DNA of 20,011 bases from a virus: the IMG/VR virus record IMGVR_UViG_3300033153_003435, positions 1 through 20,011 of that record; one strand, written 5' to 3'. Positions within the stretch are counted from its first letter, which is position 1. The number at the start of each line of letters is the position of its first letter. Shown piece by piece: positions 212-15,909 of the stretch. A program made the position numbers and the translations under genes. The notes under the pieces are model-generated. The model did no database searches. It saw only the letters and a program-made list of their open reading frames with translations, and was not told where the DNA came from.

Positions 212-349
212 ATGAGAAAGTCAGATTTTGAAAAATTAATTGAGGACGTTGACTACTATGAGTCAAACGATATGGAATTTGTATTATTGTTTTCGATTGA
301 TGGCAAAATACATGAAGTTGATTTAATAATGGTGGAAGAGAAAAGATAA
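212..349 (+). CDS. Unknown 45-residue protein
   Basis: ATG at 212 follows a strong ribosome site, TAGGAGG, at 200-206. The frame runs 45 codons to TAA at 347-349. The protein is acidic, with an amphipathic N-terminal half (FEKLIEDVDYY) and a beta-like C-terminal half (LLFSIDGKIHEVDLI). I recognise no family. Its stop codon is embedded in the left arm of an ATAAAA-N6-TTTTAT dyad. The good ribosome site and tandem position support it as a real gene despite its length. Confidence 0.6.
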   Translation: MRKSDFEKLIEDVDYYESNDMEFVLLFSIDGKIHEVDLIMVEEKR

Positions 350-406
350 AACGAAGATTTTATTGGGTTTTACGATGGCTGAAACCATTGGAATCACTAC
401 ATTGTT
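346..406 (+). repeat. Composite intergenic element, copy 1 (inverted orientation)
   Basis: The dyad ATAAAA-CGAAGA-TTTTAT (346-363) is followed, after about 9 bases, by a block (373-406) ending ACTACATTGTT. Reverse-complemented, this block begins ACAATGTAGTG like the copies at 5631, 5879 and 7032. The order (dyad, then block) is the mirror image of those three copies, with matching spacing, so the unit is inverted as a whole. The TAA stop of the preceding gene is bases 2-4 of the dyad. A small extra hairpin, ATGG-CTGAAA-CCAT, lies at 375-388. Confidence 0.75.
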
Positions 407-420
407 AAAAGGAGAAAATA

Positions 421-699
421 ATGAAAATTAGGTATAAATTGAAATTATATCCAATAACTGAAGACGGCGAAGAGATTTATTGTGGTGGATTCTTGGATGT
501 CATACGTATTGAATTTGACACTAAAAGTGTGTATACAAAAGTTGAGTATACAGACGCACTACGTATGTTGACTGATAATATGATGTATGGTCATAGGCTT
601 GACGTATGGCATTACGGTGATAACCGAGATGAAAGAGACCAACAGAGCGAATTATGGGCTAGTATAGATGATAATGAATATTTAAAAATAAGTGAATAA
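421..699 (+). CDS. Unknown 92-residue protein
   Basis: ATG at 421 is preceded by AAGGAGA at 409-415. The 92-residue product is hydrophilic and acidic, with beta-rich N-terminal sequence (KIRYKLKLYPI) and a highly charged C-terminal third containing GDNRDERDQQSE. There is no signal peptide or membrane segment, and I recognise no family. It sits between composite element copy 1 and a promoter-like sequence (703-731), so it may end one transcriptional segment. Confidence 0.7.
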   Translation: MKIRYKLKLYPITEDGEEIYCGGFLDVIRIEFDTKSVYTKVEYTDALRMLTDNMMYGHRLDVWHYGDNRDERDQQSELWASIDDNEYLKISE

Positions 700-702
700 A
701 AC

Positions 703-731
703 TTGTTTTAAAATTAAAGTTATGATATAAT
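703..731 (+). promoter_or_regulatory. Probable extended -10 promoter
   Basis: TTGTTT (703-708), a 17-base spacer, and TATAAT (726-731) preceded by TG one base upstream (TGATATAAT). The -10 hexamer is perfect and extended, while the -35 is weak. It lies in the 82-base gap before the membrane-protein gene at 782 and points toward it, giving an expected start near 738. Confidence 0.55.
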
Positions 732-781
732 AAGTTAAAGAAAACATTGGAGAAATTAATTAGAAAATAAGGAGGAATAAA

Positions 782-1150
782 ATGTTAAGCGTATTTTTAA
801 TGGTAGTATTTATGGTAGTGACGATTGTTTTAACTATAAAGGGAATTGGTGGATTAGACGGCTTTATGACGATAGTTGGATTGGCACTAGCCTTTTGTCT
901 GTTGTTTGGAGCGATGTTCTATCTCGATACCAACTCAATAGACATAGAAAGAGAAGAAATAGTTTTGGCAATGAATGAATTTGCTAGTGGAGACCTAACA
1001 GACTCACCTATATTAGAAGAAATTGTAGACTTCAATACAAACTTAGTAGAATTGAAAAGACAAAGAAAAAATATTTGGGTTAATTTTGGAATTAGTAAAA
1101 AAGTTTTAGATGTTCAGCCGATTAGACATGAAGAATATGATAACGAATAA
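782..1150 (+). CDS. Small membrane protein with acidic cytoplasmic tail
   Basis: ATG at 782 has AAGGAGG at 769-775. Residues about 3-20 (MLSVFLMVVFMVVTIVLT...) and 26-48 form two hydrophobic helices. They are followed from residue 50 by a soluble, charged segment rich in E, K and N. The predicted topology is two membrane passes with a 70-residue tail on one face. No family is recognised. Small phage membrane proteins are often host-takeover or superinfection-exclusion factors, but nothing here proves that. It directly follows the promoter at 703-731, and its stop overlaps an 18-bp dyad. Confidence 0.72.
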   Translation: MLSVFLMVVFMVVTIVLTIKGIGGLDGFMTIVGLALAFCLLFGAMFYLDTNSIDIEREEIVLAMNEFASGDLTDSPILEEIVDFNTNLVELKRQRKNIWVNFGISKKVLDVQPIRHEEYDNE

Positions 1151-1164
1151 AATAGCTGTTTTAT
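1147..1164 (+). repeat. 18-bp dyad ATAAAA-TAGCTG-TTTTAT
   Basis: Perfect 6-bp arms around a unique 6-base spacer. Bases 2-4 are the TAA stop of the upstream gene, and a GAGGAGG ribosome site for the next gene follows immediately. Confidence 0.7.
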
Positions 1165-1175
1165 GAGGAGGAATT

Positions 1176-1334
1176 ATGTTATCAGAAGGTAAAAGAAATG
1201 AAATTAGAAAAGCAATTGCAAAGAAAAATATGCCTAGAATTGAACAATTTTCAAAAGAAGAATTAATACAATATATTTATGATACTCAAGCGATTATATT
1301 GACAGTATCACAGAATTTAGTATCTAATATTTAG
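1176..1334 (+). CDS. Unknown 52-residue protein
   Basis: ATG at 1176 follows GAGGAGG at 1165-1171 with good spacing and runs 52 codons to TAG at 1332-1334. The product is basic at its N-terminus (GKRNEIRKAIAKKN) and predicted mostly helical, ending in a moderately hydrophobic helix (ELIQYIYDTQAIILTVS). It contains SKEELIQYIYD, a short motif often seen in small helical phage proteins, but I cannot assign a family. Its stop codon overlaps the ribosome site (TAGGAGG) of the next gene, so the two are probably translated from one message. Confidence 0.6.
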   Translation: MLSEGKRNEIRKAIAKKNMPRIEQFSKEELIQYIYDTQAIILTVSQNLVSNI

Positions 1335-1342
1335 GAGGAAAT

Positions 1343-1660
1343 ATGTTAAGAATTAAAGATATACTTTTAGACTTAACCGAAGAACAGATTGAATATGAAT
1401 TAAAAATGTCATGTATGACTTCAGATTATACTAAACTACATCCCGAATCATCTAATTGTGGAAGCGTATTCTTTTTAGAGAATGACAATAAAGTGTGTTT
1501 TGAAATTGATTGGTATAAAAAATGTAAATGTTTTGCAAATGAGTTGCTAGATTTTAATATTGAAATTGAAGTTAATGCATTCGATTCAGATGATTGTTGT
1601 GAAATTGAATTTGAAGAAGTATTTATATGCGATGAATTAAAAGTAGTAATATTAATATAA
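1343..1660 (+). CDS. Unknown 105-residue acidic protein
   Basis: ATG at 1343 has TAGGAGG at 1332-1338, overlapping the previous stop. The product is strongly acidic with scattered cysteines (including KKCKC near residue 55 and DDCCEIEFEE near 88). A predicted N-terminal helix (IKDILLDLTEEQIEYEL) is followed by alternating beta segments. The cysteine spacing is not a standard zinc ribbon. No family is recognised. Confidence 0.68.
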   Translation: MLRIKDILLDLTEEQIEYELKMSCMTSDYTKLHPESSNCGSVFFLENDNKVCFEIDWYKKCKCFANELLDFNIEIEVNAFDSDDCCEIEFEEVFICDELKVVILI

Positions 1661-1661
1661 G

Positions 1662-1688
1662 ATAACCGTTGGAAACACTAGATAGTTA
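1662..1688 (+). repeat. Truncated composite-element block, no dyad
   Basis: This stretch contains AACCGTTGGAAACACT followed by GATAGT. It matches the reverse complement of the conserved block found at 5631, 5879 and 7032, but without a recognisable dyad next to it. It is nearly identical over about 24 bases to the copy inside the nuclease gene at 15147-15176. Confidence 0.6.
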
Positions 1689-1710
1689 AAAATAGGAAAT
1701 GGAGTGAAAT

Positions 1711-2130
1711 ATGAACATTAACATAGAAGATGTAAGAAAGTTAGACTCCGAACAGTTGGTTGATTTAATTTATGAAATTGCAGGTGGAGTAGTAGTATTT
1801 AGAGGAAATAATAGATTTCAGAAAAAACATGGTGCCGCATGTACTGTAAATGACTGGTGGTCTGTTTCATATCCGGTCAGTGGATATATCTTTTCTGCTG
1901 AAAATAAGCACGATGCCTTACTTAATGCATTATCAAACTTATTAAAATATGAAGACTTGAGAAGTTGTAATAATTGTGACAATGGAAAGTTAGTCAGAGA
2001 ATGTACTGTATATTGCTCAAAACATTTTGTCAATAAAGAAAAATGCGACTTCAGAATATGCGGAGATTATCTGAACGAAGGAGATTTGAAAAATAAAAAG
2101 GTACTAAGAGAAAAATTAGAGATACAATAA
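1711..2130 (+). CDS. Unknown protein with cysteine-rich C-terminal half
   Basis: ATG at 1711 is preceded by a modest ribosome site, ATGGAGTG, at 1698-1705. The N-terminal 80 residues look like a small alpha/beta domain. The C-terminal part carries six cysteines at about residues 86, 89, 98, 102, 112 and 117 (CNNC, ECTVYC, KCDFRIC), a pattern suited to one or two zinc sites. The exact family is unknown. It is one of several cysteine-rich small proteins in this left module. The stop codon is inside a degenerate 18-bp dyad. Confidence 0.7.
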   Translation: MNINIEDVRKLDSEQLVDLIYEIAGGVVVFRGNNRFQKKHGAACTVNDWWSVSYPVSGYIFSAENKHDALLNALSNLLKYEDLRSCNNCDNGKLVRECTVYCSKHFVNKEKCDFRICGDYLNEGDLKNKKVLREKLEIQ

Positions 2131-2144
2131 AAGAATAAATTTAT
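2127..2144 (+). repeat. Degenerate 18-bp dyad ATAAAA-GAATAA-ATTTAT
   Basis: Five of six arm pairs are intact and the length of 18 is conserved. Bases 2-4 are the TAA stop of the upstream gene. The centre also contains the palindrome ATAAATTTAT. Confidence 0.45.
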
Positions 2145-2160
2145 CATAAAGGAGAAAGTA

Positions 2161-2787
2161 ATGGTATATGTAAGAAAATATAAATGCAACTTATGTGGAG
2201 ACGAATTCATATCTAGAAGTGATGATGAAGAATATTCAATTTGTAAGTGCGGTAAAAATAAATTAAAAGCAGATTATTTTACTTCATACAGCAACAGTGG
2301 TGAGTTTGGTAAAAATTTCGAAGAGATTGAGAGAATAGGAACATATTGTGAATTTAAAGACACTATTAACTGGTTTGGTAAAGATATAATGTTCTTAATA
2401 AATGAATGTAAATTAATGGCTGAAGAACTTGATTGGGATATCTCAGAATGGAAGAGCAAAATGGAAAATGGCGAGGAGTGTGTCACTTATATAAATTTCA
2501 CATACAATGAGTTTTTGAATAATAATATAGAATGTAATAGCTATGAAGCCACATTTAACTCTGAGCATTCTAGTAAATACGATAGAAGCGCAGTGAAAGA
2601 GTGGGAGAGTAGATTAGTTAGCTTAAAATATTTTCTAATTAGCCAAAAAGAAGGTAAATATGATTTACAACTAAGAGGAGACAATCACGCTATGGTTCAG
2701 TTAAATAATGATATTGAAAATCACGAAATATTTTGGAACGTAGAGCAAGAAAAAACAGGGCACTATCATTGTAATATAATTATTTAA
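2161..2787 (+). CDS. Zinc-ribbon-containing phage protein, function unknown
   Basis: ATG at 2161 has AAAGGAGA at 2148-2155. The 208-residue product opens with a zinc-ribbon-like knuckle pair: C9-x2-C12 (YKCNLCG) and C28-x-C30 (CKCG). The remaining 170 residues are mixed helical and beta, with an N-rich middle and a C-terminal segment ending GHYHCNIII. I do not recognise the larger domain. The ribbon could bind nucleic acid or protein. The next gene starts 13 bases after its stop with its own AAAGGAG site, so the two are likely co-translated. Confidence 0.72.
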   Translation: MVYVRKYKCNLCGDEFISRSDDEEYSICKCGKNKLKADYFTSYSNSGEFGKNFEEIERIGTYCEFKDTINWFGKDIMFLINECKLMAEELDWDISEWKSKMENGEECVTYINFTYNEFLNNNIECNSYEATFNSEHSSKYDRSAVKEWESRLVSLKYFLISQKEGKYDLQLRGDNHAMVQLNNDIENHEIFWNVEQEKTGHYHCNIII

Positions 2788-2799
2788 AGGAGATTAAAT

Positions 2800-3216
2800 A
2801 TGAGTATATTTTTTAATAACAAGGATTTGAGAACTGGCATGAAAGTAGTTTATGAAAGTGGTCTAGAGCAACTATATTTTGCTGAAGTTTATAGTACATA
2901 TGATTCAGAATACACTAACGAACCATCTAGTATTGTTATGAGGAATGGAACTAATTTTAGTGGATATTGTAAATATAAAGAAGATTACGAACTAACAAAT
3001 ATTATTGCAGTTTATGTTCCAAATCATCCATATGCAATTCAATCATTTTTTAACGTGTCAGGAATGAATGAGTATGATAAATGGGATGATTATTGGCAAA
3101 TTGATGCTAAAGAATTTGAAATATATAAATTAAATAAAAGACTAGAGAGTAACATGATGGAAAAAACTAGAATTGAAACAGAGATAGATAACCTTAAATA
3201 CGAACAGATAAAATAA
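2800..3216 (+). CDS. Unknown phage protein with C-terminal coiled coil
   Basis: ATG at 2800 is preceded by AAAGGAGA at 2786-2793. The N-terminal ~95 residues resemble a small beta-barrel type common in phage accessory genes (DLRTGMKVVYESG, then NIIAVYVPNH). That resemblance is from pattern only. Residues about 107-138 are a charged helix with heptad-like spacing (KLNKRLESNMMEKTRIETE), a likely coiled coil and so possible oligomerisation. The stop lies in the spacer of an 18-bp dyad. Confidence 0.7.
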   Translation: MSIFFNNKDLRTGMKVVYESGLEQLYFAEVYSTYDSEYTNEPSSIVMRNGTNFSGYCKYKEDYELTNIIAVYVPNHPYAIQSFFNVSGMNEYDKWDDYWQIDAKEFEIYKLNKRLESNMMEKTRIETEIDNLKYEQIK

Positions 3217-3268
3217 TACTTTTATCGTCAAATGCGTCGACTACATACGTTGCAAACACTACATTGTT
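3207..3268 (+). repeat. Composite intergenic element, copy 2 (inverted orientation)
   Basis: This has the best dyad of the family: GATAAAA and TTTTATC arms (3207-3213, 3220-3226). After about 8 bases comes the conserved block (3235-3268) containing GTTGCAAACACTACATTGTT. Reverse-complemented, it aligns without gaps to the copy at 5879, including TGTAG, a 14-base linker ending AC, and GATAAAA. A direct repeat, ACTACAT, occurs at 3240 and 3258. Confidence 0.78.
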
Positions 3269-3289
3269 AAAATTGAAAAATGGAGGAAT

Positions 3290-3538
3290 ATGAAGAATTT
3301 TTATGTTCATAGAGATAAATTAAAGGATGAGAAGTTTTTAGCGATTAAGCTATATACATTGCAAGAAGCTAAAGATGAAGTTGGAGAGACGGATTTCTAT
3401 TTTGAATATGCAGACAGTGATAGAGATTATTACGGCACGATAGAGCAGTTTGAGGGTGGAGCAGTTGCGTTCATTCCAAGAATTAAGATTGATGAGGATA
3501 ATGAGGAATATGTAAAGTTCGACGCAATTCAATATTAA
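3290..3538 (+). CDS. Unknown 82-residue protein
   Basis: ATG at 3290 has TGGAGGA at 3281-3287. The product is acidic and probably alpha/beta, with aromatic-rich acidic stretches (DFYFEYADSDRDYYG) and a C-terminal FDAIQY. No membrane segment or motif is visible and no family is recognised. It follows composite element copy 2 directly and precedes the HD-hydrolase gene by 37 bases. Confidence 0.68.
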   Translation: MKNFYVHRDKLKDEKFLAIKLYTLQEAKDEVGETDFYFEYADSDRDYYGTIEQFEGGAVAFIPRIKIDEDNEEYVKFDAIQY

Positions 3539-3575
3539 AATACTATAAAAGGTTCGTTTCATCAGGAGGTGAAAA

Positions 3576-4232
3576 ATGAGATTAATAGATTTAGTTACAG
3601 AGGATATGCTTAAAAATTTTGGCACAACAAAAGAAGAATTATTAGATTATCCGTATACATGCCCTAGCGAAATGGGGTTCGAACATAATTGCAAAAGTTA
3701 TAAAAATGATATGAGCGAATGTGGCGACTGCTATAAAGAAAAAATTTCAAAAGATAGTACGTTATATATCCAACATTCAGGAGAGTTAATGTATAGAAAG
3801 GCTAAGGATATTGCTTTTAAGGCTCATAAGGGACAGAAAGATAAATCTGGAAAGTCATATATTAACCATCCATTACATGTTGCTTTTCATGTAGTAGATT
3901 ACAGAGACAAGATAGTTGCTATATTACACGATACAATCGAAGATACATTTGTCACAATTGACTATTTAAGAGAGAGTGGAATAAATGATGAAGAATTATT
4001 AAATGATTTATTATTAGTTACACATGTTGACGAAGACTCTTATAAAGACTATATTGAGAAAATTTATCAAAGTGGCAGCGAAAGAGCTAAGAGAATTAAA
4101 TTATTGGATTTAAGTCATAACATGGATATTAATAGATTAAATAAATTTAAAGAAAAAGATATTGATAGAATCACAAAATATGCAGCTTCTTATATTTATT
4201 TAAAAACTGGTGAGTGGCTAAAGGAGATTTAG
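3576..4232 (+). CDS. HD-domain (p)ppGpp hydrolase-like protein (RelA/SpoT-MESH1 type)
   Basis: ATG at 3576 has AGGAGGTG at 3565-3572. Residues ~70-200 carry the RelA/SpoT HD hydrolase signature: AHKGQKDKSGKSYINHP (H84, H98), ILHDTIEDT (H118-D119, E122-D123) and LLDLSHNM (D178, H181, N182). In this family these residues bind Mn and cleave the 3'-pyrophosphate of (p)ppGpp; MESH1 and small alarmone hydrolases consist of little more than this domain. No synthetase domain is present. The N-terminal ~60 residues are extra, with four cysteines (29, 39, 49, 52) that may bind zinc. It could lower host alarmone during infection, or act on another nucleotide. Family is fairly sure, substrate inferred. 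Confidence 0.82.
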   Translation: MRLIDLVTEDMLKNFGTTKEELLDYPYTCPSEMGFEHNCKSYKNDMSECGDCYKEKISKDSTLYIQHSGELMYRKAKDIAFKAHKGQKDKSGKSYINHPLHVAFHVVDYRDKIVAILHDTIEDTFVTIDYLRESGINDEELLNDLLLVTHVDEDSYKDYIEKIYQSGSERAKRIKLLDLSHNMDINRLNKFKEKDIDRITKYAASYIYLKTGEWLKEI

Positions 4233-4260
4233 AGATATTTTATTGTAGGGAGGTATGGAT

Positions 4261-4440
4261 ATGAAAGTTATATGTGATAAATGCGATGATATTTTTGATT
4301 TTAACGAAAATACGAAATATTGGGTGTCTAAAGATTATTGGCGTGGCTGTGACATGGACAATGACTCTGCATGTATAGATACCATATGCCCAAATTGTGG
4401 TCATGAAATGGGCGGCTGTGGGAATTATGAAAACGAATAG
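4261..4440 (+). CDS. Small zinc-ribbon protein
   Basis: ATG at 4261 is chosen over the in-frame ATG at 4255 because GGGAGG (4248-4253) would leave only one base before 4255 but seven before 4261. The 59-residue product has C5-x2-C8 (CDKC) and C43-x2-C46 (CPNC), the classical two-knuckle zinc ribbon, plus cysteines at 30, 38 and 53. Such ribbons bind nucleic acid or protein partners. It is acidic, so direct DNA binding is not obvious. Function unknown. Confidence 0.7.
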   Translation: MKVICDKCDDIFDFNENTKYWVSKDYWRGCDMDNDSACIDTICPNCGHEMGGCGNYENE

Positions 4441-4469
4441 ATAATATTTGTTTACAAAAAGGAGAGATT

Positions 4470-4613
4470 ATGGAGCGTATAAAATTAGCAAAAGGTCATT
4501 GGTTTTTATTCGTATTATATATGACAGGATATGGATTGTTATTATTTACAGATTGGAAGATAGCATTAGGTGTATTTTTAATTCATTGGTATGTAAATAT
4601 TGATATAGAATAA
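4470..4613 (+). CDS. Small two-helix membrane protein, 47 residues
   Basis: ATG at 4470 has AAAGGAGA at 4458-4465. The peptide has a short basic start (MERIKLAKGH), then two hydrophobic helices at about 11-27 and 29-44 separated by DWK, and ends DIE. This is consistent with a hairpin in the inner membrane. No family is recognised. It is one of three consecutive or nearly consecutive tiny membrane proteins here. Its TAA stop is bases 2-4 of an 18-bp dyad. Confidence 0.62.
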   Translation: MERIKLAKGHWFLFVLYMTGYGLLLFTDWKIALGVFLIHWYVNIDIE

Positions 4614-4626
4614 AACGTCATTTTAT
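4610..4626 (+). repeat. 17-bp dyad ATAAAA-CGTCA-TTTTAT
   Basis: Perfect 6-bp arms but a 5-base spacer, the only copy shorter than 18. It contains the TAA stop of the upstream gene. GAGACAGAGGGAG follows, with an AGAGGG word also seen in the conserved block of the copy at 7032. Confidence 0.62.
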
Positions 4627-4647
4627 GAGACAGAGGGAGAAACTATA

Positions 4648-4839
4648 ATGAAAGAAAGCATCAAAGTAGATAACGGGAAATATGAGATTGTAGTTGAGGA
4701 CAATGGCATGAAATTCTATGCCAATCGACATAATGAAAGCTGGAGAGATTTGAATGGAGACAAGTTAATTATGTCTATGTTTTACAGAATACAAGAGCTA
4801 GAAGAAATAGAATATATGTATAATGATTTGTGCAAGTAG
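4648..4839 (+). CDS. Unknown 63-residue protein
   Basis: ATG at 4648 follows AGAGGGAG at 4632-4639. The product looks like a small beta sheet (IKVDNGKYEIVVEDNGMKFYANR) followed by a C-terminal helix (MFYRIQELEEIEYMYNDL). Acidic, no cysteine cluster, no family recognised. Its stop, TAG at 4837-4839, overlaps the AGGTG ribosome site of the following membrane-protein gene, suggesting translational coupling. Confidence 0.62.
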   Translation: MKESIKVDNGKYEIVVEDNGMKFYANRHNESWRDLNGDKLIMSMFYRIQELEEIEYMYNDLCK

Positions 4840-4850
4840 GTGTGATGAAT

Positions 4851-5012
4851 ATGAAAACAATATTAATAATGATAGTTTTTACACTTGTACTCATGGGTGA
4901 AAGCTATGTCAGAGGGAATTTATCAGTTAATACAATATTTTTCTATATAGCTTACATAGTCGGCGGAATAACTGCACTTGTGATTGAGAAGTATTATGTT
5001 AATAAAAGATGA
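4851..5012 (+). CDS. Small two-helix membrane protein, 53 residues
   Basis: ATG at 4851 is chosen because AGGTG (4838-4842) is 8 bases upstream. In-frame starts at 4830 (GTG) and 4845 (ATG) have no properly spaced ribosome site. The peptide has two hydrophobic stretches (about 2-16 and 30-48) linked by a polar loop (ESYVRGNLSVN) and ends in a basic tail, YYVNKR. That suggests both ends cytoplasmic by the positive-inside rule. It resembles small holin-like or accessory phage membrane proteins in shape only. Confidence 0.62.
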   Translation: MKTILIMIVFTLVLMGESYVRGNLSVNTIFFYIAYIVGGITALVIEKYYVNKR

Positions 5013-5032
5013 TAGAAGAAAGGTGGAGAAGT

Positions 5033-5218
5033 ATGGAATTTTATATGGTTGTATTATTATTAATTTACATATTATCTGTAGTGTTTAGTCTGATGACTAT
5101 GGTCATATTTGGTTGGGTAGCAAGCTCTTATATATTAGCTATAATTCCAATAGTAAATACTATTATTGGATTGCCATTAGTTATTATGATGTTATTCCAT
5201 GTAATAACGAGAGATTAG
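5033..5218 (+). CDS. Small hydrophobic membrane protein, 61 residues
   Basis: ATG at 5033 is preceded by AAAGGTGG at 5018-5025. The longer in-frame start at 5009 overlaps the previous stop and lacks spacing to a ribosome site. Nearly the whole 61-residue product is hydrophobic: helices at about 3-28 and 33-58, with HVITRD as a short charged end. Function is unknown. With the genes at 4470 and 4851 it forms a local run of tiny membrane proteins. Confidence 0.62.
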   Translation: MEFYMVVLLLIYILSVVFSLMTMVIFGWVASSYILAIIPIVNTIIGLPLVIMMLFHVITRD

Positions 5219-5263
5219 GAAAAATGGTGAATTAAAATATAAACAGAAGAGAATGGAGGAAAT

Positions 5264-5527
5264 ATGAATGGGTTAGAATTTAAAGACCTAGAAGAAGGAA
5301 AATTATATAAGCATATAGGTTATGAAAATTACTATTCAAAGAAAAATGGATTATTATTTAGAGTTGATTATAATGAATATGCAGATTTCTCAAATCCGTG
5401 GTTTATATTAGGTATGAGGTTTGTAGAGATGGTAGAGAAGGAAAAGGGATGTGTAAAATGGATTTTAAAGAAGACGCACTATTGTCAGAGATTGAGTCAA
5501 TGCGAGAAAATCATGAATATGAGATAA
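5264..5527 (+). CDS. Unknown 87-residue protein, 3' end overlaps next gene
   Basis: ATG at 5264 follows ATGGAGGA at 5253-5260. The N-terminal ~65 residues (LEFKDLEEGKLYKHIG, then PWFILGMRFVEMVEK) look like a compact beta-rich phage domain. The last ~22 residues (ILKKTHYCQRLSQCEKIMNMR) lie in the region where the gene at 5458 is read in another frame, and their composition differs (basic, cysteine-containing). The original stop may have been lost or a frameshift may have extended the gene. Family unknown. Confidence 0.6.
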   Translation: MNGLEFKDLEEGKLYKHIGYENYYSKKNGLLFRVDYNEYADFSNPWFILGMRFVEMVEKEKGCVKWILKKTHYCQRLSQCEKIMNMR

Positions 5528-5619
5528 ATAATATTCATGAAAGTTATGAAAGACAAATTGACGATATGCAGAATATAATAAATGATTTGTACGACCAATT
5601 GAGTGACATTCGTCAATAA
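5458..5619 (+). CDS. Unknown 53-residue coiled-coil protein
   Basis: ATG at 5458 has AGGG at 5445-5448, nine bases upstream. An in-frame GTG at 5398 exists but has no ribosome site, so the shorter start is preferred. The product is almost entirely charged helix with heptad-like spacing (EIESMRENHEYEINNIHESY, then QIDDMQNIINDLYDQL), a probable coiled coil. It overlaps the upstream gene by 70 bases in a different frame. A small oligomeric or partner-binding protein is plausible. Confidence 0.58.
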   Translation: MDFKEDALLSEIESMRENHEYEINNIHESYERQIDDMQNIINDLYDQLSDIRQ

Positions 5620-5630
5620 ACGAAAAATCA

Positions 5631-5690
5631 ACAATGTAGTGTTTGCAATACCTACAGAGGTTGAAAAACAAGATAAAATTACAATTTTAT
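5631..5690 (+). repeat. Composite intergenic element, copy 3 (direct orientation)
   Basis: The conserved block (5631-5662) begins ACAATGTAGTGTTTGCAA and contains TGTAG (5635-5639) and CTACA (5652-5656), an inverted pair around a 12-base loop, followed by GAGGTTG. About 10 bases later comes the dyad ATAAAATTACAATTTTAT (5673-5690), here with arms extendable to eight bases. AAGGAGG follows directly, so the element sits as the leader of the gene at 5702. Confidence 0.78.
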
Positions 5691-5701
5691 AAGGAGGAGA
5701 T

Positions 5702-5878
5702 ATGGATAATAAAACAATTGCAGAATTACTAGCTAACTTATGTTATAAACCAAAGCAAAGTTATTCTGGAGAATTTGCCGCACAAATATTTGTTGAAAAT
5801 ATTGTGCTTCCAGAATATTTGGACAATTATACTGAAAAAGAATTAGAAAGGTATATTTTAGAGTTTTTAGAAAAATAA
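5702..5878 (+). CDS. Unknown 58-residue protein
   Basis: ATG at 5702 has AAGGAGGAG at 5691-5699, directly after composite element copy 3. The product is acidic and helical, with IAELLANLCYKPKQSYSGEF and a C-terminal helix YTEKELERYILEFLEK. No motif is recognised. It is bracketed by composite elements on both sides (5631-5690 and 5879-5937), so it looks like a one-gene cassette. Confidence 0.62.
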   Translation: MDNKTIAELLANLCYKPKQSYSGEFAAQIFVENIVLPEYLDNYTEKELERYILEFLEK

Positions 5879-5937
5879 GAATGTAGTGTTTTCAACACTT
5901 GTAGAGGTTGGAATTAACGATAAAACTGTGGTTTTAT
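5879..5937 (+). repeat. Composite intergenic element, copy 4 (direct orientation)
   Basis: It starts right after the TAA of the upstream gene. The block (5879-5911) contains ATGTAGTGTTTTCAACACTTG, whose core AGTGTT-TTC-AACACT (5885-5899) is a clean 6-bp hairpin, then GTAGAGGTTGG. The dyad ATAAAA-CTGTGG-TTTTAT (5920-5937) follows at the same spacing as the other copies, then a GGAAGGAG ribosome site for the next gene. Confidence 0.78.
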
Positions 5938-5953
5938 TTGGAAGGAGACGCCG

Positions 5954-6160
5954 ATGAGAATTTTTGTATGGGACAGATGTTGGAATGGGGCTACTGCGGT
6001 AATTGCAAAAAGTTCAGAAGAAGCATTTAATATTATGTTGAAAAGCAATGAAATTAATAAAGAGTATGTTTTAAAGAGCAAAGATGAGATAATCCAATTT
6101 TTTAATTCTGAAAATTATTCATTAGAAGAGGGAACAATATTTTTCACAAGTGGTGAATAG
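5954..6160 (+). CDS. Unknown 68-residue protein
   Basis: ATG at 5954 follows GGAAGGAGA at 5940-5948. The product is a probable small alpha/beta domain: strand RIFVWDRCW, strand TAVIAKS, helix SEEAFNIMLKS, helix KDEIIQFFNS, strand TIFFTSGE. The layout (strand, then SEEAF helix) resembles many short phage proteins of unknown function. Its stop overlaps TAGGAGG, the ribosome site of the gene at 6169. Confidence 0.64.
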   Translation: MRIFVWDRCWNGATAVIAKSSEEAFNIMLKSNEINKEYVLKSKDEIIQFFNSENYSLEEGTIFFTSGE

Positions 6161-6168
6161 GAGGCATT

Positions 6169-6555
6169 ATGTTACAAGACGTTATAGAAGGATATGTATT
6201 AAGTTGTTTTTCAGAAGGAAATAAACAAGAAATGGCAGGAATAAATAATATTAAATTAGATACATTAATATTCTGCACAAATAAGAAGAAGTTAGATAAA
6301 TATGTAGATGATTTATTACACGACTTTGATGTTGAGGATTCAATAGATAAAATAATTAGAACAAAGAATAGAGTTGAAATTAGATTTAAAGATGGAAGAA
6401 AGATTTTGAGCACAGGGTATTCTGAGACAGCTAGAGGATTTAGATATAAAAAATTAATACTTGATTTAGAGGAAATGGGATGTAGCAATATCTTTGACCA
6501 TATTATCGTACCTATGGGATATGCTTGTAAAAGAAGTGACGTAAGCTTTATATAA
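6169..6555 (+). CDS. Unknown 128-residue protein
   Basis: ATG at 6169 has TAGGAGG at 6158-6164, overlapping the previous stop. The product is alpha/beta, with CTNKKKLDKYVDDLLHDF in the middle and a beta-turn-beta segment NRVEIRFKDGRKIL followed by ARGFRYKKLILDLEEMG. That last part faintly recalls the strand before the Walker region of terminase-type ATPases, but there is no P-loop, so I make no such call. No membrane segment or cysteine cluster. Function unknown. Confidence 0.68.
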   Translation: MLQDVIEGYVLSCFSEGNKQEMAGINNIKLDTLIFCTNKKKLDKYVDDLLHDFDVEDSIDKIIRTKNRVEIRFKDGRKILSTGYSETARGFRYKKLILDLEEMGCSNIFDHIIVPMGYACKRSDVSFI

Positions 6556-6563
6556 GCATAAAA

Positions 6564-6581
6564 ATAAAGCCGTGATTTTAT
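6564..6581 (+). repeat. 18-bp dyad ATAAAG-CCGTGA-TTTTAT
   Basis: Five Watson-Crick arm pairs plus one G-T pair, length 18. It lies 8 bases after the upstream stop and is followed by AAAAGGAG of the next gene. Confidence 0.58.
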
Positions 6582-6598
6582 ATCAAAAGGAGATAGAT

Positions 6599-6823
6599 AT
6601 GAAAATAGAAAGAAAAGGAATTACTCATGCAGTAGCAAATTGGTTTAGCACAGAGCAAGGCGACGATTATTTAGAACTTGAAGTAGGTAAAAATGGGGTT
6701 GAAGAAATGTGTTATTGCGTTTCAGACAATTATGGCGAGCATCCATATGTTCAAGTAATATCTAATAACGGAACAACGATAGAAGAATTTTTTAATGTAA
6801 ATGCAATTAAATATATAAGATAA
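6599..6823 (+). CDS. Unknown 74-residue protein
   Basis: ATG at 6599 is preferred because AAAAGGAGA (6586-6594) precedes it. An in-frame GTG at 6572 lies inside the intergenic dyad and has no ribosome site. The product is probably a small beta protein with an aromatic start (ITHAVANWFSTEQGDDYLEL) and a C-terminal TIEEFFNVNAIKYIR. No motif is recognised. Its TAA stop is bases 2-4 of the next dyad. Confidence 0.66.
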   Translation: MKIERKGITHAVANWFSTEQGDDYLELEVGKNGVEEMCYCVSDNYGEHPYVQVISNNGTTIEEFFNVNAIKYIR

Positions 6824-6837
6824 AATCCCAATTTTAT
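6820..6837 (+). repeat. 18-bp dyad ATAAAA-TCCCAA-TTTTAT
   Basis: Perfect arms, extendable to seven pairs (ATAAAAT and ATTTTAT) around CCCA. It contains the upstream TAA stop and is followed at once by AAGGAGG. Confidence 0.7.
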
Positions 6838-6848
6838 AAGGAGGCAAT

Positions 6849-7025
6849 ATGAAAACTCAAGAGGAAAAATTCTTAGAATTAATGAATGAATTTAGGATAA
6901 AATCAAATAAGAAAAGAGTTTTTAACGACGAGTCCATTTATGATGTATCAAATTATGGATATGTTGCGTGTAATTTTAAATTTGACAAGGATGGCAACTT
7001 TAAAGAGATTGATTGTTATAATTAG
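6849..7025 (+). CDS. Unknown 58-residue protein
   Basis: ATG at 6849 has AAGGAGG at 6838-6844. An N-terminal helix (QEEKFLELMNEFRIKSNKK) is followed by a beta segment (YDVSNYGYVACNFKFDKDG) ending IDCYN. No family is recognised. It is followed seven bases later by composite element copy 5. The strong ribosome site and full-length frame support the gene. Confidence 0.62.
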   Translation: MKTQEEKFLELMNEFRIKSNKKRVFNDESIYDVSNYGYVACNFKFDKDGNFKEIDCYN

Positions 7026-7031
7026 AAATTG

Positions 7032-7091
7032 ACAATGTAGCAATTGCAACGGTTACAGAGGGCGGAAAAGACGATAAAAGAAGCATTTTAT
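7032..7091 (+). repeat. Composite intergenic element, copy 5 (direct orientation)
   Basis: The block (7032-7064) reads ACAATGTAGCAATTGCAACG then GTTACAGAGGGCGG. GTAGC and GGTTAC can form a short stem and GCAATTGC is palindromic. The dyad ATAAAA-GAAGCA-TTTTAT (7074-7091) follows at conserved spacing. Unlike copies 3 and 4, about 13 further bases precede the AAAGGAG ribosome site of the next gene. Confidence 0.76.
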
Positions 7092-7120: not shown

Positions 7121-7483
7121 ATGAGCGTAGATTATTATGGATGTAAAAAGTGTGGAGATGGTGTGTATGAAGAGTATATCGGATACTGTTGTGATTGCGG
7201 AGAAAGAGTTGGAACGTGTTGTGTAGTTAATGATGACAAAAATGACCGTTATATTTATGAATATGGATTAAAATGTGATGGAACAAAAGAGCAAGCTGAT
7301 AAATATGGATTTGACTTAGAAGAATACGAAATAGGCGAGAAGATTGATGATGCTGGATTTGACAGTAAGTACTGTCCATTTTGTTCTGGAGGAGCAGTTA
7401 ACGATGAGATGTTATTAAATCATGCATTAGCTTTGTTAAATATGACTACTGAAGAACTAACAGAAAATTATCGTAACAGATAA
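7121..7483 (+). CDS. Multi-cysteine zinc-binding-like protein
   Basis: ATG at 7121 follows AAAGGAGA at 7109-7116. The 120-residue product has knuckles C8-x2-C11 (CKKC), C23/C24-x-C26 (CCDC), C33-C34, and near the C-terminal third C85-x2-C88 (CPFC), followed by a helix (NDEMLLNHALALLNMTTEEL). Two zinc sites are likely, one N-terminal ribbon and a second formed with the distant CPFC. No family is recognised. The stop overlaps a degenerate dyad. Confidence 0.7.
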   Translation: MSVDYYGCKKCGDGVYEEYIGYCCDCGERVGTCCVVNDDKNDRYIYEYGLKCDGTKEQADKYGFDLEEYEIGEKIDDAGFDSKYCPFCSGGAVNDEMLLNHALALLNMTTEELTENYRNR

Positions 7484-7497
7484 AACAACGAATTCAT
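7480..7497 (+). repeat. Degenerate 18-bp dyad ATAAAA-CAACGA-ATTCAT
   Basis: Length and position are conserved: it contains the TAA stop and is followed by AAGGAGG. Only four of six arm pairs remain, so it is identified mainly by alignment with the other copies. Confidence 0.45.
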
Positions 7498-7782: not shown

Positions 7783-7800
7783 ATAAAAGACTGATTTTAT
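7783..7800 (+). repeat. 18-bp dyad ATAAAA-GACTGA-TTTTAT
   Basis: Perfect 6-bp arms around a unique spacer, two bases after the upstream stop and about ten bases before the AAGGAGG site of the next gene. Confidence 0.7.
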
Positions 7801-8196: not shown

Positions 8197-8214
8197 ATAA
8201 AATTGCCATTTCAT
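8197..8214 (+). repeat. Imperfect 18-bp dyad ATAAAA-TTGCCA-TTTCAT
   Basis: Five of six arm pairs with conserved length. It lies ten bases after the upstream stop and just before the AAAGGAG site of the gene at 8231. Confidence 0.5.
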
Positions 8215-8230: not shown

Positions 8231-8404
8231 ATGGAGAAGATATTTTTAAAGATAGGAATAGATGTTGATGAAGACAATTGTTATTCTTTCATAGACTTAA
8301 TGAATGAAAGTTTTATGGTTAATGAGCTAGGCTTCAACAATGAGAAAATTGAAAAAGTTGGAGATTGGATTAGCGAATTGATGCATATTATGACAAGCGA
8401 ATAA
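8231..8404 (+). CDS. Unknown 57-residue acidic protein
   Basis: ATG at 8231 follows AAAGGAG at 8218-8224. The product is acidic and probably helical in its C-terminal half (NNEKIEKVGDWISELMHIMT), with a short N-terminal strand (IFLKIGIDVDED). No motif is recognised. It is the last gene of the left module. The 276-bp control region follows, and its TAA stop is bases 2-4 of the final dyad copy. Confidence 0.62.
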   Translation: MEKIFLKIGIDVDEDNCYSFIDLMNESFMVNELGFNNEKIEKVGDWISELMHIMTSE

Positions 8405-8418
8405 ATTCGACGTTTTAT
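8401..8418 (+). repeat. 18-bp dyad ATAAAT-TCGACG-TTTTAT, last copy
   Basis: Five of six arm pairs, length 18, with the TAA stop at bases 2-4. It is the last copy seen; none was noticed between genes of the replication module to the right. Confidence 0.55.
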
Positions 8419-9134: not shown

Positions 9135-10370
9135 ATGGCTAAAAAAGAAAAGAAACTTGTAAAAAAGAAAGTAAGTATGTTTAATCTTGTTGGCAAGGCA
9201 ATTGTTAATGATTACACATACACTATAGACGCAAATTCTAATAGTTCTGATTGGGTTTACAACAGAATGAACCTAAATGTTAATTGCGGAGAAAGTGGAA
9301 AAGTTAGTACTGAAGCTATGGGTGGTTATGGTTCAAAGAGAGATAATGTTATTTACGTAAATGGTGTAAAAACAAATGATGATGGAAAAACAGTAGATGA
9401 TTATTCAAATAGCTTTACGATAGATTGGGAAGATAGATTGGATGAAAGTTTATTTGATGAAATTGCAAGAAATAGTTTTATCACAGTTGGTTTAGAAGTA
9501 GATTCTGATGGCAAGACTTTTTATAAGAAATTCTTAAGTGAATACGATGCTATTAATTACGCACAAGAGCATCTTGAATCAGATATGGTTTTAAATATTA
9601 GAGGTAATTTACAGTATAGCGTATATAACGAATACACACAAGTTAGAAAGCAATTTACTTCAATTGTATTATCCAAAGCAAAAGAAGAAGATTTTAGAGC
9701 GACATTCTCTCAAACATTATTAGTTGACAAAGATAGTATTGGTGACTATGATGGCGATGAAAATGCAGTTTCTATGACATGTTATATTCCAGAGTATGTA
9801 AGTAGCTTTGTAACATCTGATGGTGAAAAAGTTAAAGTACCTAAAGAAAATAAAGATAAAAGAAATGTCGTATTTAGTAAAGCGTTTTTATATGACTGTG
9901 GTGACAAAGAACCAGCTAAGATTGAAAAATTCTTAAAGAAGTATTTGAAACCTAAAAAAGAAAATATTCATGCAATAGTATTTGATGGATTTATTACCAA
10001 AGGTGGCTCATTACAAGAAGTTACACTGGATGATTTACCAGAGGATATTAGAGATTTAGTGGAAATGGGTGCATATACAGAAGAGGAGGCTATTGAAAAA
10101 GCTGTAGGTTCTGGTGGTAAAGTAGAAAAATATATCATAAAAGCTCCAAGAATTATCAAAGCAAGAAAAGAAGGAGAGTCACCTAGATTAAATATTAATG
10201 AAGATGAATATACAACAGATGATTTATATTTCTTTAGTAATTTAGTTTCTGATTTCTCAAGTGATTCAGATGACGAAGTTCCTTTTGATACTGAAGACAA
10301 AGATAGCGAAGATGATATTGATATTGATGACTTTGATATTGATTCATTAATTGATGACGACGAAGAATAA
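9135..10370 (+). CDS. Probable phage ssDNA-binding protein with acidic tail
   Basis: ATG at 9135 has AAGGAGAG at 9120-9127. The 411-residue protein starts with a basic stretch (AKKEKKLVKKKVS), then a segment with OB-fold-like strand pattern (MFNLVGKAIVNDYTY, later MVLNIRGNLQYSVYNEY). It ends in about 33 almost purely acidic residues including DDEVPFD and DFDIDSL. Acidic C-terminal tails that recruit partners are typical of phage and bacterial SSBs (gp32, T7 gp2.5, SSB). Position before a RecA-like ATPase, helicase and primase supports the role. No direct family signature is visible, so this is inference. Confidence 0.6.
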   Translation: MAKKEKKLVKKKVSMFNLVGKAIVNDYTYTIDANSNSSDWVYNRMNLNVNCGESGKVSTEAMGGYGSKRDNVIYVNGVKTNDDGKTVDDYSNSFTIDWEDRLDESLFDEIARNSFITVGLEVDSDGKTFYKKFLSEYDAINYAQEHLESDMVLNIRGNLQYSVYNEYTQVRKQFTSIVLSKAKEEDFRATFSQTLLVDKDSIGDYDGDENAVSMTCYIPEYVSSFVTSDGEKVKVPKENKDKRNVVFSKAFLYDCGDKEPAKIEKFLKKYLKPKKENIHAIVFDGFITKGGSLQEVTLDDLPEDIRDLVEMGAYTEEEAIEKAVGSGGKVEKYIIKAPRIIKARKEGESPRLNINEDEYTTDDLYFFSNLVSDFSSDSDDEVPFDTEDKDSEDDIDIDDFDIDSLIDDDEE

Positions 10371-10384
10371 GGAGGAGATTAAAT

Positions 10385-11533
10385 TTGGGCAAATATGGTA
10401 AAAAGAATGTAATTAAGGTAGACCCAACGGCATATCACATAGGATTATTAGGTGAAAGTGGGGTTGGTAAAACAACAATTATGGTTGAGGTTGCAGAAAA
10501 GCTTGTTGGAGAAGATGGATACATGGTTTTAAATATAGGTCAAGAGGAAGGCATTGATGCAATTGCAAATGCGATGTACGAGGATGCTCCAGATTTTGAA
10601 ACATTAGAAGATATTGTTGATGACATTGTGACTAATAAAACAGAAGATTACCCTAGACTGAGACTTATGGTTATGGATACATTAGATGAATTATTTAGAA
10701 TCTCTGAGAAAGAAGTTGTTAGACTTCATAACAAAGAGTTTCCAGATAAAAGAGTTAAATCAATTAAGGCAGCGTTTGGTGGATATCAGGCGGGAGAAGA
10801 TAAAGCAATTGAAATTGTATTAGATTTAATTAAAGAACTTAAGTCCGTGGGTGTATCAGTTTGGTATACCGGACATACGAAGAAAAGAACAATGACAGAT
10901 GTAGTTACTGGAATGGAATATGATATGTTGACAACAAATATGACAAATAAATATTTCAACGCAATAAAAACTAAACTTCATGTACTTGGTGTAGCTTCTA
11001 TCGACAGAGATATTGTCCAAAAGAAAAGTGATAAAAAGGGTTTTGATGGAAAAACCAAAATGGTGGGCTCTATAAATGGTATTAATAGAAAAATTACTTT
11101 TAGAGATGATAATTTTAATATTGATTCTAAATCTAGATTCTCAGAAATTACAGACCATATTGAATTTGATGCAGACGCATTTATTGATGCAATCAACGAC
11201 GCAATTAAAGCAGAGTTTGACAAGCAAACTGGTAAAAAAACTATTTCTCAAGTAAAAAAACAACAAGAGAAAGAAGTAGAAAACAAAACAAAAGAGAAGG
11301 TTGCTAAAATTCAAGGTGAAAAACAAAAATTAGCTGACTTAGAGGAGTTTGAGTCGTTAAAGCATGATGTTTCAGATTATATTAAAAAATGCAAAACATT
11401 AGAAGATAAGTCTGAGCAAAAAAGATTATTAACTCCATTATTAACAAAAATGAAAGAGTTCGGAGTTAAGAGTGCATCGAAAATTGAATCATTAGAGGAT
11501 GCAAGAGTATTGGTTGACACAATGATAGAATAG
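10385..11533 (+). CDS. RecA-like AAA ATPase, Sak4/AAA_24 type
   Basis: TTG at 10385 follows GGAGGAG (10371-10377); the nearby ATG at 10394 is out of frame. Walker A is GESGVGKT (residues 23-30). Walker B is LMVMDT with D98. A sensor-like WYTGHTKKR follows near residue 160, typical of phage RecA-fold ATPases in the Sak4/AAA_24 group, which act in ssDNA annealing and recombination-dependent replication. The last ~95 residues are a lysine/glutamate-rich coiled region not part of the core. Neighbours (ssDNA-binding candidate upstream, helicase downstream) fit. Exact subfamily needs a profile search. Confidence 0.8.
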   Translation: MGKYGKKNVIKVDPTAYHIGLLGESGVGKTTIMVEVAEKLVGEDGYMVLNIGQEEGIDAIANAMYEDAPDFETLEDIVDDIVTNKTEDYPRLRLMVMDTLDELFRISEKEVVRLHNKEFPDKRVKSIKAAFGGYQAGEDKAIEIVLDLIKELKSVGVSVWYTGHTKKRTMTDVVTGMEYDMLTTNMTNKYFNAIKTKLHVLGVASIDRDIVQKKSDKKGFDGKTKMVGSINGINRKITFRDDNFNIDSKSRFSEITDHIEFDADAFIDAINDAIKAEFDKQTGKKTISQVKKQQEKEVENKTKEKVAKIQGEKQKLADLEEFESLKHDVSDYIKKCKTLEDKSEQKRLLTPLLTKMKEFGVKSASKIESLEDARVLVDTMIE

Positions 11534-11542
11534 CAATAATAT

Positions 11543-11580
11543 AAATTAATAGCGGTGATTAATATTATCGCTATTAATTT
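11543..11580 (+). terminator. Long stem-loop, terminator-like
   Basis: AAATTAATAGCG (11543-11554) pairs perfectly with CGCTATTAATTT (11569-11580). The pairing continues inward with G-T and A-T pairs to a four-base loop, giving about 17 pairs. It begins nine bases after the ATPase stop and ends 21 bases before the next start. The following bases are only TTTTG in part, so termination may be weak; mRNA stabilisation or partial attenuation is equally possible. Confidence 0.55.
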
Positions 11581-11601
11581 TGAATTAAAGGTGGTTAATT
11601 T

Positions 11602-12033
11602 ATGGCTAAAGATAAAGAATTTGACGAAGTATACCAATATTTTAAAGAAGAAATATTAAGATATCATGATAAAAAAGTACCAAAATATGTAATTTTAAGA
11701 TTAATTGGTCTTAAAGATGGAAAGTTTATGGCAAATAATAATGTTAAATCCGATGGTGTTTACTCATATAAGATAATTTTATTAACATTAAAATTAATAA
11801 AGGGTAGTATCGACAGATATATGGATAACACGGAATTTTCAAATGAACAACATATGATAAATGGAATATTTAAAATAGTAGAAAACGAGATTAATAACGT
11901 TAAAGATAGAATAGAAAATGCAAAGAAAAGTGAGGATAAAATTAAAGAGATAGACTTATCTCATCACAAATCGGAGCAAGTTGAATTCAAAAGTAAGAAT
12001 AAGAAAAACAAAAAGATGAAAGGGTTATGGTAG
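11602..12033 (+). CDS. Unknown 143-residue basic protein, possible helicase loader
   Basis: ATG at 11602 has AAAGGTGG at 11587-11594. The product is helical. An N-terminal domain (FDEVYQYFKEEILRYHDKKV, then YVILRLIGLKDGKFM) is followed by a long amphipathic helix and a very basic tail (KSKNKKNKKMKGLW). There is no Walker motif. A small helical protein directly before a DnaB-type helicase often serves as loader or partner, but nothing in the sequence proves it here. Confidence 0.62.
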   Translation: MAKDKEFDEVYQYFKEEILRYHDKKVPKYVILRLIGLKDGKFMANNNVKSDGVYSYKIILLTLKLIKGSIDRYMDNTEFSNEQHMINGIFKIVENEINNVKDRIENAKKSEDKIKEIDLSHHKSEQVEFKSKNKKNKKMKGLW

Positions 12034-12042
12034 TTTATAAAT

Positions 12043-13563: not shown

Positions 13564-13591
13564 AAGGTAGAGCGAGGTGGAAAATTAATTG

Positions 13592-14668
13592 ATGGCAAAC
13601 CAATTAAAAGAATATATATATGAAAATGATAAAGTAGAATTTATATTAGAAGAGATTGGGTGTCATAATATAAACTCTACTTATAAAAAAGAATTTCGAT
13701 GCGGACTGCCAAGTCATAGTAATAAAAATTCTGTATCAGTTAAGAAAGAGCCAAGTTTGAAAGTAGCTGTTTATGGTTCAGATGATGAAATTATAAGAGG
13801 TGATATATTCACTTTAGTCATGAACATAAAAGAAAAAAACTTTCCAAAGTCGGTAGAGTATTTACATAAATTATTAGGCTTGAAATATGAAAGATATAAA
13901 AGCAATAAAAAAGAAGAGAACAATGATTCTCCGCTAAATATATTTAAAAAAATGTCATCAAAAAGTAAAGGTTGTAAAGTTGACGTTAGTGAAATTGAAT
14001 TTGTAGACGAGCATTTTATATCAGACTATACACCAAATCTACATGAGTCATGGATAAGAGAAGGCATAATAAGCAGAACAGCTCGACGATTCAATATAGG
14101 ATATGATTATGATAGAAAAAGAATAATTATCCCTCACAGATATTGGCAGGGTGATGAAAATGATTTTATAGGTGTGATAGGAAGAACGACTTTAGATGAT
14201 AAGTTAGTAGATATGCTTGGCGTTCCTAAGTATTTTCCAATGAAAGCATATCCTAAAAATATTAATCTCTATGGATTAAATGAAAACTACAAATCCATAC
14301 AAGAAACTGGGTATGTTTCCGTGTTCGAAGCGGAGAAATCTACCCTCAAAAGACACAGTAGATTGGACGAAACGGGAGTAGGAGTAGGCTCTCATTCTCT
14401 TTCTGATGAGCAAGTGAAAATACTTATATCATTAGATGTTGAGGTAATTATCTGTTACGACCAAGATGTGTCTCTTGAACATATAAGAAGTGAATGTGAA
14501 AAATTTTATGGTATAAGAAAATGTTCTTATATTTATGATAAATGGGGATTACTTGGAAAGAAAGATAGTCCAGCAGATTTAAGTAATAAATTATATCAAT
14601 TCATGTTTAAATATAGAGTTAGATATGATGAAGGCGAACATAAAGAGTATATTAAAAGTTTAAAATAA
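13592..14668 (+). CDS. dnaG: DNA primase, CHC2 zinc finger plus Toprim (DnaG-like)
   Basis: ATG at 13592 or the adjacent in-frame TTG at 13589 could start; GAGGTGG (13574-13580) is 11 or 8 bases away. Residues ~23-45 carry the CHC2-type zinc site (GCHN, then FRCGLPSHS). GDIFTLVMNI at ~70-80 is the usual helix after it. Residues ~240-332 match the Toprim fold: FEAEKS with E247, GVGVGSHSLSDEQ, ICYDQD (D291, D293) and KKDSPADL. It makes RNA primers with the helicase upstream. At 358 residues it is shorter than cellular DnaG, as usual for phage primases lacking the helicase-binding domain. Confidence 0.87.
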   Translation: MANQLKEYIYENDKVEFILEEIGCHNINSTYKKEFRCGLPSHSNKNSVSVKKEPSLKVAVYGSDDEIIRGDIFTLVMNIKEKNFPKSVEYLHKLLGLKYERYKSNKKEENNDSPLNIFKKMSSKSKGCKVDVSEIEFVDEHFISDYTPNLHESWIREGIISRTARRFNIGYDYDRKRIIIPHRYWQGDENDFIGVIGRTTLDDKLVDMLGVPKYFPMKAYPKNINLYGLNENYKSIQETGYVSVFEAEKSTLKRHSRLDETGVGVGSHSLSDEQVKILISLDVEVIICYDQDVSLEHIRSECEKFYGIRKCSYIYDKWGLLGKKDSPADLSNKLYQFMFKYRVRYDEGEHKEYIKSLK

Positions 14669-14681
14669 AGGATGGTAATAA

Positions 14682-15899: not shown

Positions 15900-15909
15900 A
15901 GGTTATAAT

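Follow-up and report, generated by a model that had tools for sequence, protein, structure and literature searches.

Repeated two-part intergenic units in a low-GC phage sequence are probably composite protein-binding sites built on a palindrome of SPbeta-related phages

What kind of element is repeated as a two-part unit between the small genes of a phage, and occurs there either way round? The question is raised by a virus record of low guanine + cytosine (GC) content, IMG/VR IMGVR_UViG_3300033153_003435, of which positions 1-20,011 (20,011 bp, 29.7% GC) form the stretch of DNA analysed here, referred to as the window. Essentially all of its genes lie on the plus strand. An initial annotation described five copies of a unit of ~60 bp, in which a conserved block and an inverted repeat (here called dyad1) lie at fixed spacing, and proposed that it is a protein-binding DNA site, a mobile cassette boundary, or a structured RNA that tolerates inversion. 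The analysis presented here suggests that the unit is probably a bipartite protein-binding DNA site, or composite operator, of a dispersed, stoperator-like kind, serving a phage regulator and a partner on the same face of the DNA.

The pattern TGTAGNNNTTNCAA-N{18,28}-ATAAAANNNNNNTTTTAT matches the window at exactly five places, at 346-401 and 3208-3263 on the minus strand and at 5635-5690, 5882-5937, and 7036-7091 on the plus strand, and none in 100 dinucleotide-preserving shuffles. The five copies, and the inversion of the first two as whole units, are thus confirmed. The gap between block and dyad (from ...CAA to GATAAAA or AATAAAA) is 23 bp in every copy, although 18-28 bp was permitted, and with both orientations included the copies align without gaps over 65 columns, 30 of them invariant. 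Dyad1, ATAAAA-N6-TTTTAT, is found in eight exact copies in the window against 0.12 expected, together with five that have one mismatch, and all of these lie at gene junctions between 346 and 8418. Fixed spacing holds within the composites, but the two parts also occur apart, as most dyads are solo (at ~10 junctions beyond the five composites) and the block is present twice uncoupled. When a profile was built from the five copies, as the initial annotation had proposed, a sixth, intergenic block scored 26.4 against non-family noise of ~10; a seventh block lies within a beta-turn of the window exonuclease, which is longer there than in most homologues. The orientation of the intergenic blocks follows their position, the three on the left pointing leftward and the three on the right rightward, while all genes run rightward.

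The window phage was placed near SPbeta because the order of its replication genes is that of SPbeta yorF-G-H-I-J-K-L, as judged against the SPbeta annotation. In a search with the window helicase, SPbeta-group phages showed ~25% identity and Thomasclavelia phages 42%. Enrichment of the shorter palindrome TAAAA-N6-TTTTA was assessed against the reversed pattern in the same genome, and counts are given here as dyad/control. They are 34/2 in SPbeta, 30/2 in phi3T, 31/2 in Goe14, 33/1 in FADO, 23/6 in vB_BcoS-136, 30/7 in Geobacillus E3, 36/3 in Mammaliicoccus phi6255, and 17/2 in Perkons. G001 (L007), the one relative in the viral contigs with a homologous phrog_2367 gene, has 40/1, and five further uncultured phages have 60/4 (G014), 37/6 (G015), 39/7 (G016), 28/6 (G017), and 41/9 (G023). 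The palindrome barely exceeds background, if at all, in Lactococcus 949 (7/3), TR-TP1 (4/5), Ldl1, vipetofem, and SEP9, and six bacterial genomes, which are not known hosts, show no excess. In SPbeta it extends symmetrically to TCTNNATAAAA-N6-TTTTATNNAGA, with 11-bp arms and a 6-bp spacer, and in FADO to TGGATAAAA-N6-TTTTATCCA; in both phages the dyads concentrate outside the structural genes. Judged by sequence, the window dyad belongs to this palindrome family of SPbeta-related phages, so that the suggestion of an unrelated equivalent in a low-GC phage was too modest. Those parts of the SPbeta record (NC_001884) that were inspected do not annotate the 34 SPbeta copies, and searches of open full-text literature on SPbeta and on phage intergenic repeats found no description of the dyad, with a mention in the 1999 SPbeta genome paper being possible. 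A different dialect, TGAAA-N6-TTTCA, is found in 25 copies against 1.8 expected in the gut phage MT835469 (L101, L131-L137), where it sits between stop codons and Shine-Dalgarno sequences.

Two-part sites are also present among the relatives. Many G014 dyads have another palindrome as a partner, dyad2 (GTTGAAATTTCAAC), which occurs in 24 copies at ≤2 mismatches against one for the control; G015, G016, and G017 were identified by a scan with a loosened composite pattern. Across these four uncultured phages, the distance between the centres of dyad1 and dyad2 is 38, 28, or 18 bp in 27 of 30 pairs. A sequence-blind scan for palindromes near dyad1 likewise has its peak at 38 bp in three of them (G014, G015, G017) and shows two peaks, 28 and 38 bp, in G016. 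Their composites are intergenic in 31 of 32 cases, with 22 in the sense of the genes and 12 inverted. Read from dyad to block, the window unit is ATAAAA-N6-TTTTAT and then, 24 bp after TTTTA, GTTGnAAnnnCTAC, which begins ATTG in two of the five copies; the unit of the four phages is TAAAA-N6-TTTTA, 23 or 13 bp, and GTTGAAATTTCAAC. Since 9 of 14 positions match, the architecture is the same, and the spacing differs by 1 bp, the window block may be regarded as a version of GTTGAAATTTCAAC, and the two as forms of one element. The top match of the window matrix in G015 is the dyad2 of a composite, in the same register, although the reversed sequence scores equally high. The partner of the dyad in FADO is another sequence, TCTCTATAGAGA, which lies 36-40 bp away in five of six near pairs; it carries little weight because it was first spotted by eye. 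A general partner palindrome was sought in SPbeta and G001 by the sequence-blind scan and none was found. Two individual loci may be mentioned here. A symmetric triple site, dyad1 - 38 bp - dyad2 - 38 bp - dyad1, is present in G017 (centre 56704; L045:10293-10384). One composite site is common to the IMG/VR records G020 and G023 (L044, L049), as is an integrase frame that contains an in-frame TAG; the two are probably overlapping contigs of one phage.

Searches in the style of the window itself gave little beyond chance. The exact block had two matches in the viral contigs, both coding and attributable to chance, and composites sought elsewhere gave only coding chance matches. A composite scan of genome contigs gave 18 chance-like matches, several of them one coding stretch recurring in relatives, and the gap was 24 bp in all 18, with 23 bp equally permitted. 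Of eleven helicase-related loci scanned, ten were without the block and had at most two dyads each.

The location of many dyads, between a stop codon and a Shine-Dalgarno sequence, raises the possibility of a stem-loop in RNA that tunes translation or mRNA processing. Such a position is strand-consistent in G001, where most dyads read TAAAAN6TTTTAAGAGG between stop codon and start, and small hairpins can be drawn. Other properties make an RNA element very improbable. The spacer is exactly 6 bp, with 40 G001 dyads at that gap against 0-2 at each other gap tested. Mirrored positions in the spacer and outside the arms show no covariation beyond their own composition in 313 sites from nine phages; the arms were excluded from this test, since they had been selected to match. 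Among gap-6 dyads in the intergenic regions of G001, 38 have the TAAAA arm and 11 have any other arm (control gaps 14). Complementarity is lost in all 38 sites with two mismatches. RNA folding of the five window copies on both strands is unremarkable (z from -2.2 to +0.8), there is no Rfam match in the window, and the units are found inverted relative to genes. Helical phasing, occurrence in both orientations, the exact gap of 6 bp, and the lack of covariation or compensation argue for the site of a DNA-binding protein and not for an RNA stem. Of the possibilities first raised, a protein-binding site is therefore well supported as a reading of the sequence, and a structured RNA is contradicted. 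Terminators were considered as well, and none of the window copies is terminator-like.

In the mechanism that we propose, part 1 (ATAAAA-N6-TTTTAT) would be the form taken in the window phage by a dimer-bound palindrome, tens of copies of which are spread over the small-gene regions of SPbeta-related phages, at junctions inside gene runs and not at promoters. Part 2, the block (the other way round, GTTGnAAnnnCTACATTGT), could be recognized by another dimeric protein or by a further domain of the first one. Because the distance between the parts varies in relatives only by whole helical turns, both proteins probably keep a fixed angular position and touch, and the unit would work either way round because both parts are DNA sites. 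A regulator covering these sites might act on transcription across groups of small early genes by blocking or timing it, through silencing or as a roadblock to elongation, with the two-part copies acting as strong, cooperative sites. By analogy with stoperators (PMC3029335), it might halt transcription across gene runs, or slow it down, in the prophage or ahead of the proper time. The features visible in the sequence itself that point to this reading are the repeated copies, rigid spacing, phasing, independence of orientation, the signature of a DNA and not an RNA element, phylogenetic spread, and intergenic placement away from promoters; from them we infer protein binding, cooperativity, and a role in transcription.

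Several observations weigh against this proposal. The binding protein is putative, and the element recognized by MrpR, the SPbeta repressor already known, is another one. Homology between the block and GTTGAAATTTCAAC rests on the 9 of 14 positions and the spacing of 24 versus 23 bp, and is less secure in that the exact window block is absent elsewhere in the searched collections. Furthermore, the GTTG partner is absent from the named SPbeta-like phages, which do have the dyad. Many dyads overlap a stop codon and abut a Shine-Dalgarno sequence (consensus TTTTAAGAGG before the start), and 21 of 40 G001 dyads start with a stop codon, both of which would suit a role in translation too.

The dyad could also be a recombination or cassette-boundary element in which short shared homologies at gene junctions promote the modular exchange of small genes (PeSL-like or linker-like), with binding secondary or absent. 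In pairwise comparisons of SPbeta, phi3T, and Goe14, mosaic alignment breaks are 1.3-1.7 times commoner in dyad-bearing gaps than in matched gaps, with p between 0.007 and 0.14 across five comparisons that overlap (alignment-block ends 14 vs 9.4, 15 vs 8.8, 12 vs 8.7, 11 vs 8.2, and 14 vs 8.8). One block copy also lies within an enlarged loop of coding sequence, that of the exonuclease. Dyad sites may accordingly mark exchange points in mosaic genomes, though their spacing and phase are left unexplained by this. The N6 and linker vary between sites of one genome, so that little homology is on offer for recombination. Moreover, the site is intact in all 31 pairwise comparisons with aligned flanks (which are not independent), suggesting selection, and no clean empty site, by insertion or deletion, was seen among them. 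Clean presence or absence at syntenic junctions was not seen, and the enrichment of mosaic breaks supports the cassette-boundary idea weakly and indirectly; we regard a recombination element as unlikely. A genome-maintenance function, with the palindromes as dispersed centromere-like sites, sites for a nucleoid protein (for example the HU-like YonN of SPbeta), or replication or packaging sites, is also doubtful. Tens of dispersed palindromes would suit it, yonN of SPbeta is annotated as encoding a DNA binding protein, and DNA could be bent by A-tracts phased at 10 bp; against it, nearly all the sites are intergenic, and they cluster in small-gene regions. Phased A-tract pairs on the same strand are not enriched, and intrinsic DNA bending is not supported.

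Xer sites have 11-bp arms and a 6-bp spacer. The palindrome could correspondingly be a core site of tyrosine-recombinase type, its arms bound by a XerC/D-like protein or by a repressor with the recombinase fold (MrpR/YopP/YomM type). Such proteins are attractive because the 11-6-11 layout in SPbeta resembles their core sites, which have two inverted arms around a spacer of 6-8 bp, and one is encoded in all large dyad-bearing contigs tested. MrpR is itself a DNA-binding repressor with a recombinase fold (PMC10516654). On the other hand, the MrpR peaks carry another sequence, integrases are found in dyad-less relatives too, and G001 has no YomM type; this explanation also has a low probability. 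The YomM-type recombinase was rejected as the specific binder, as it occurs in the dyad-less phages 949, Ldl1, vipetofem, and SEP9 as well.

Among known systems, the closest kinds are stoperators, SAS/ESAS, and SPBRE, each of which differs in a defining feature. Stoperators of L5/Bxb1 (Cluster A mycobacteriophages) are short, mainly intergenic sites dispersed in tens of copies, as the dyad is; in both, the site sequence differs between phages, and action away from promoters is inferred. They are bound by a phage repressor that blocks elongation, for which a counterpart here may be supposed by analogy. In contrast to them, the dyad is symmetric, and the composite has a second site at helical spacing and is found in either orientation. 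SAS/ESAS of Cluster K mycobacteriophages are repeats of unknown function in the small-gene half, about half of them with a 17-bp inverted repeat and with a consensus that differs between subclusters (PMC3203893), features which resemble those of the unit. However, SAS are tied to translation starts and partly complementary to 16S rRNA, and the aligned window copies have no common 13-bp core of GGGATAGGAGCCC type at start codons. The ESAS spacer varies (4-13 bp), whereas here both the 6-bp spacer and the distance between sites are rigid, and the unit is found inverted. SPBRE, bound by the SPbeta master repressor MrpR, is likewise scattered between genes in this phage group (PMC10516654). It is promoter-linked, with about ten sites; of nine MrpR target genes tested in SPbeta (NC_001884), eight have ACAAAAAATATGTAT or a one-base variant in their promoters, and this sequence is likely to be the 15-bp SPBRE. 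It differs from the dyad in sequence and in its SPbeta positions, and another protein must therefore be sought for the dyad. SPBRE as a partner of dyad1 in SPbeta was also rejected, the spacing being unfixed when positions were compared by hand.

The initial annotation had drawn a parallel with PeSLs, which, as summarized in PMC4503421 (citing Arbiol 2010 and Comeau 2014), combine an early promoter with a stem-loop in T4-type phages. Both are compound elements repeated between small genes, but the window units have neither promoter nor RNA stem. The eight exact window dyads have no promoter-like sequence within 60 bp, and in G001, SPbeta, FADO, and G014 dyads are no closer to promoter-like sequences than gene ends are; the analogy fails on its promoter half. 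A promoter reading of the block or dyad2 was also rejected: a -10 element within one mismatch, on either side, accompanies 8 of 32 composites in G014-G017 and 2 of 20 solo sites, so that a promoter is not a general feature.

A wider proposal, which we offer tentatively, is that SPbeta and its wide kin might share an undescribed global control. A phage protein would act on 20-60 palindromes between small genes, in some lineages locking onto a second protein on the same DNA face. Distinct from MrpR/SPBRE and arbitrium, it would silence or time the early region in a chromatin-like way. SPbeta serves as a model temperate phage, and a regulator reading the dyads would add a layer to lysis-lysogeny and early-gene control in a large phage group. 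B. subtilis 168 carries SPbeta, making a direct test possible, and the one-turn steps between half-sites provide a clean prediction about cooperative binding.

Table 1. Positions of composite units, separate blocks and dyads, and the replication module in the window.
Feature	Position	Strand	Details
Composite copy 1	346-405	-	dyad1 346-363, block 388-405 (ACAATGTAGTGATTCCAA on minus strand); dyad overlaps stop codon of open reading frame (ORF) 212-349
Composite copy 2	3208-3267	-	dyad1 3208-3225, block 3250-3267; dyad contains stop of ORF 2800-3216
Composite copy 3	5631-5690	+	block 5631-5648, dyad1 5673-5690; AAGGAGG follows directly
Composite copy 4	5878-5937	+	block 5878-5895, dyad1 5920-5937
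Composite copy 5	7032-7091	+	block 7032-7049, dyad1 7074-7091
Block-only copy 6	1669-1686	-	ACTATCTAGTGTTTCCAA on minus strand; intergenic; no dyad at expected distance
Block-only copy 7	15159-15176	-	within exonuclease coding sequence (14682-15899); 23/25 bases identical to copy 6
Dyad1 solo, exact	1147-1164		overlaps stop of ORF 782-1150
Dyad1 solo, exact	6820-6837		overlaps stop of ORF ending 6823
Dyad1 solo, exact	7783-7800		just 3' of stop at 7781
Dyad1, one mismatch	2127-2144		
Dyad1, one mismatch	3545-3562		
Dyad1, one mismatch	6564-6581		
Dyad1, one mismatch	8197-8214		
Dyad1, one mismatch	8401-8418		
Degenerate dyad1	4610-4626		5-bp spacer (ATAAAA-N5-TTTTAT); gene junction
Degenerate dyad1	7480-7497		two mismatches; gene junction
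Replication module	9135-20011	+	phrog_2367, Sak4-like, small protein, DnaB, primase, exonuclease, LAGLIDADG endonuclease, DnaE-type polymerase

Some additional features were observed in the window and in FADO. The gene for the LAGLIDADG-type homing endonuclease (15910-17016) lies immediately upstream of the DnaE-type polymerase gene and overlaps its start (17003 onward), and an HD-type metal-dependent phosphohydrolase (phrog_990) is encoded at 3576-4232 amid small genes of unknown function. FADO (OM236516) has an array of sigma-70 type promoters at 56964-60587, in which the -35 element TTGACA is embedded in the palindrome CGTTGNCAACG; this is present in 13 copies against 0.05 expected and looks like an operator overlapping early promoters.

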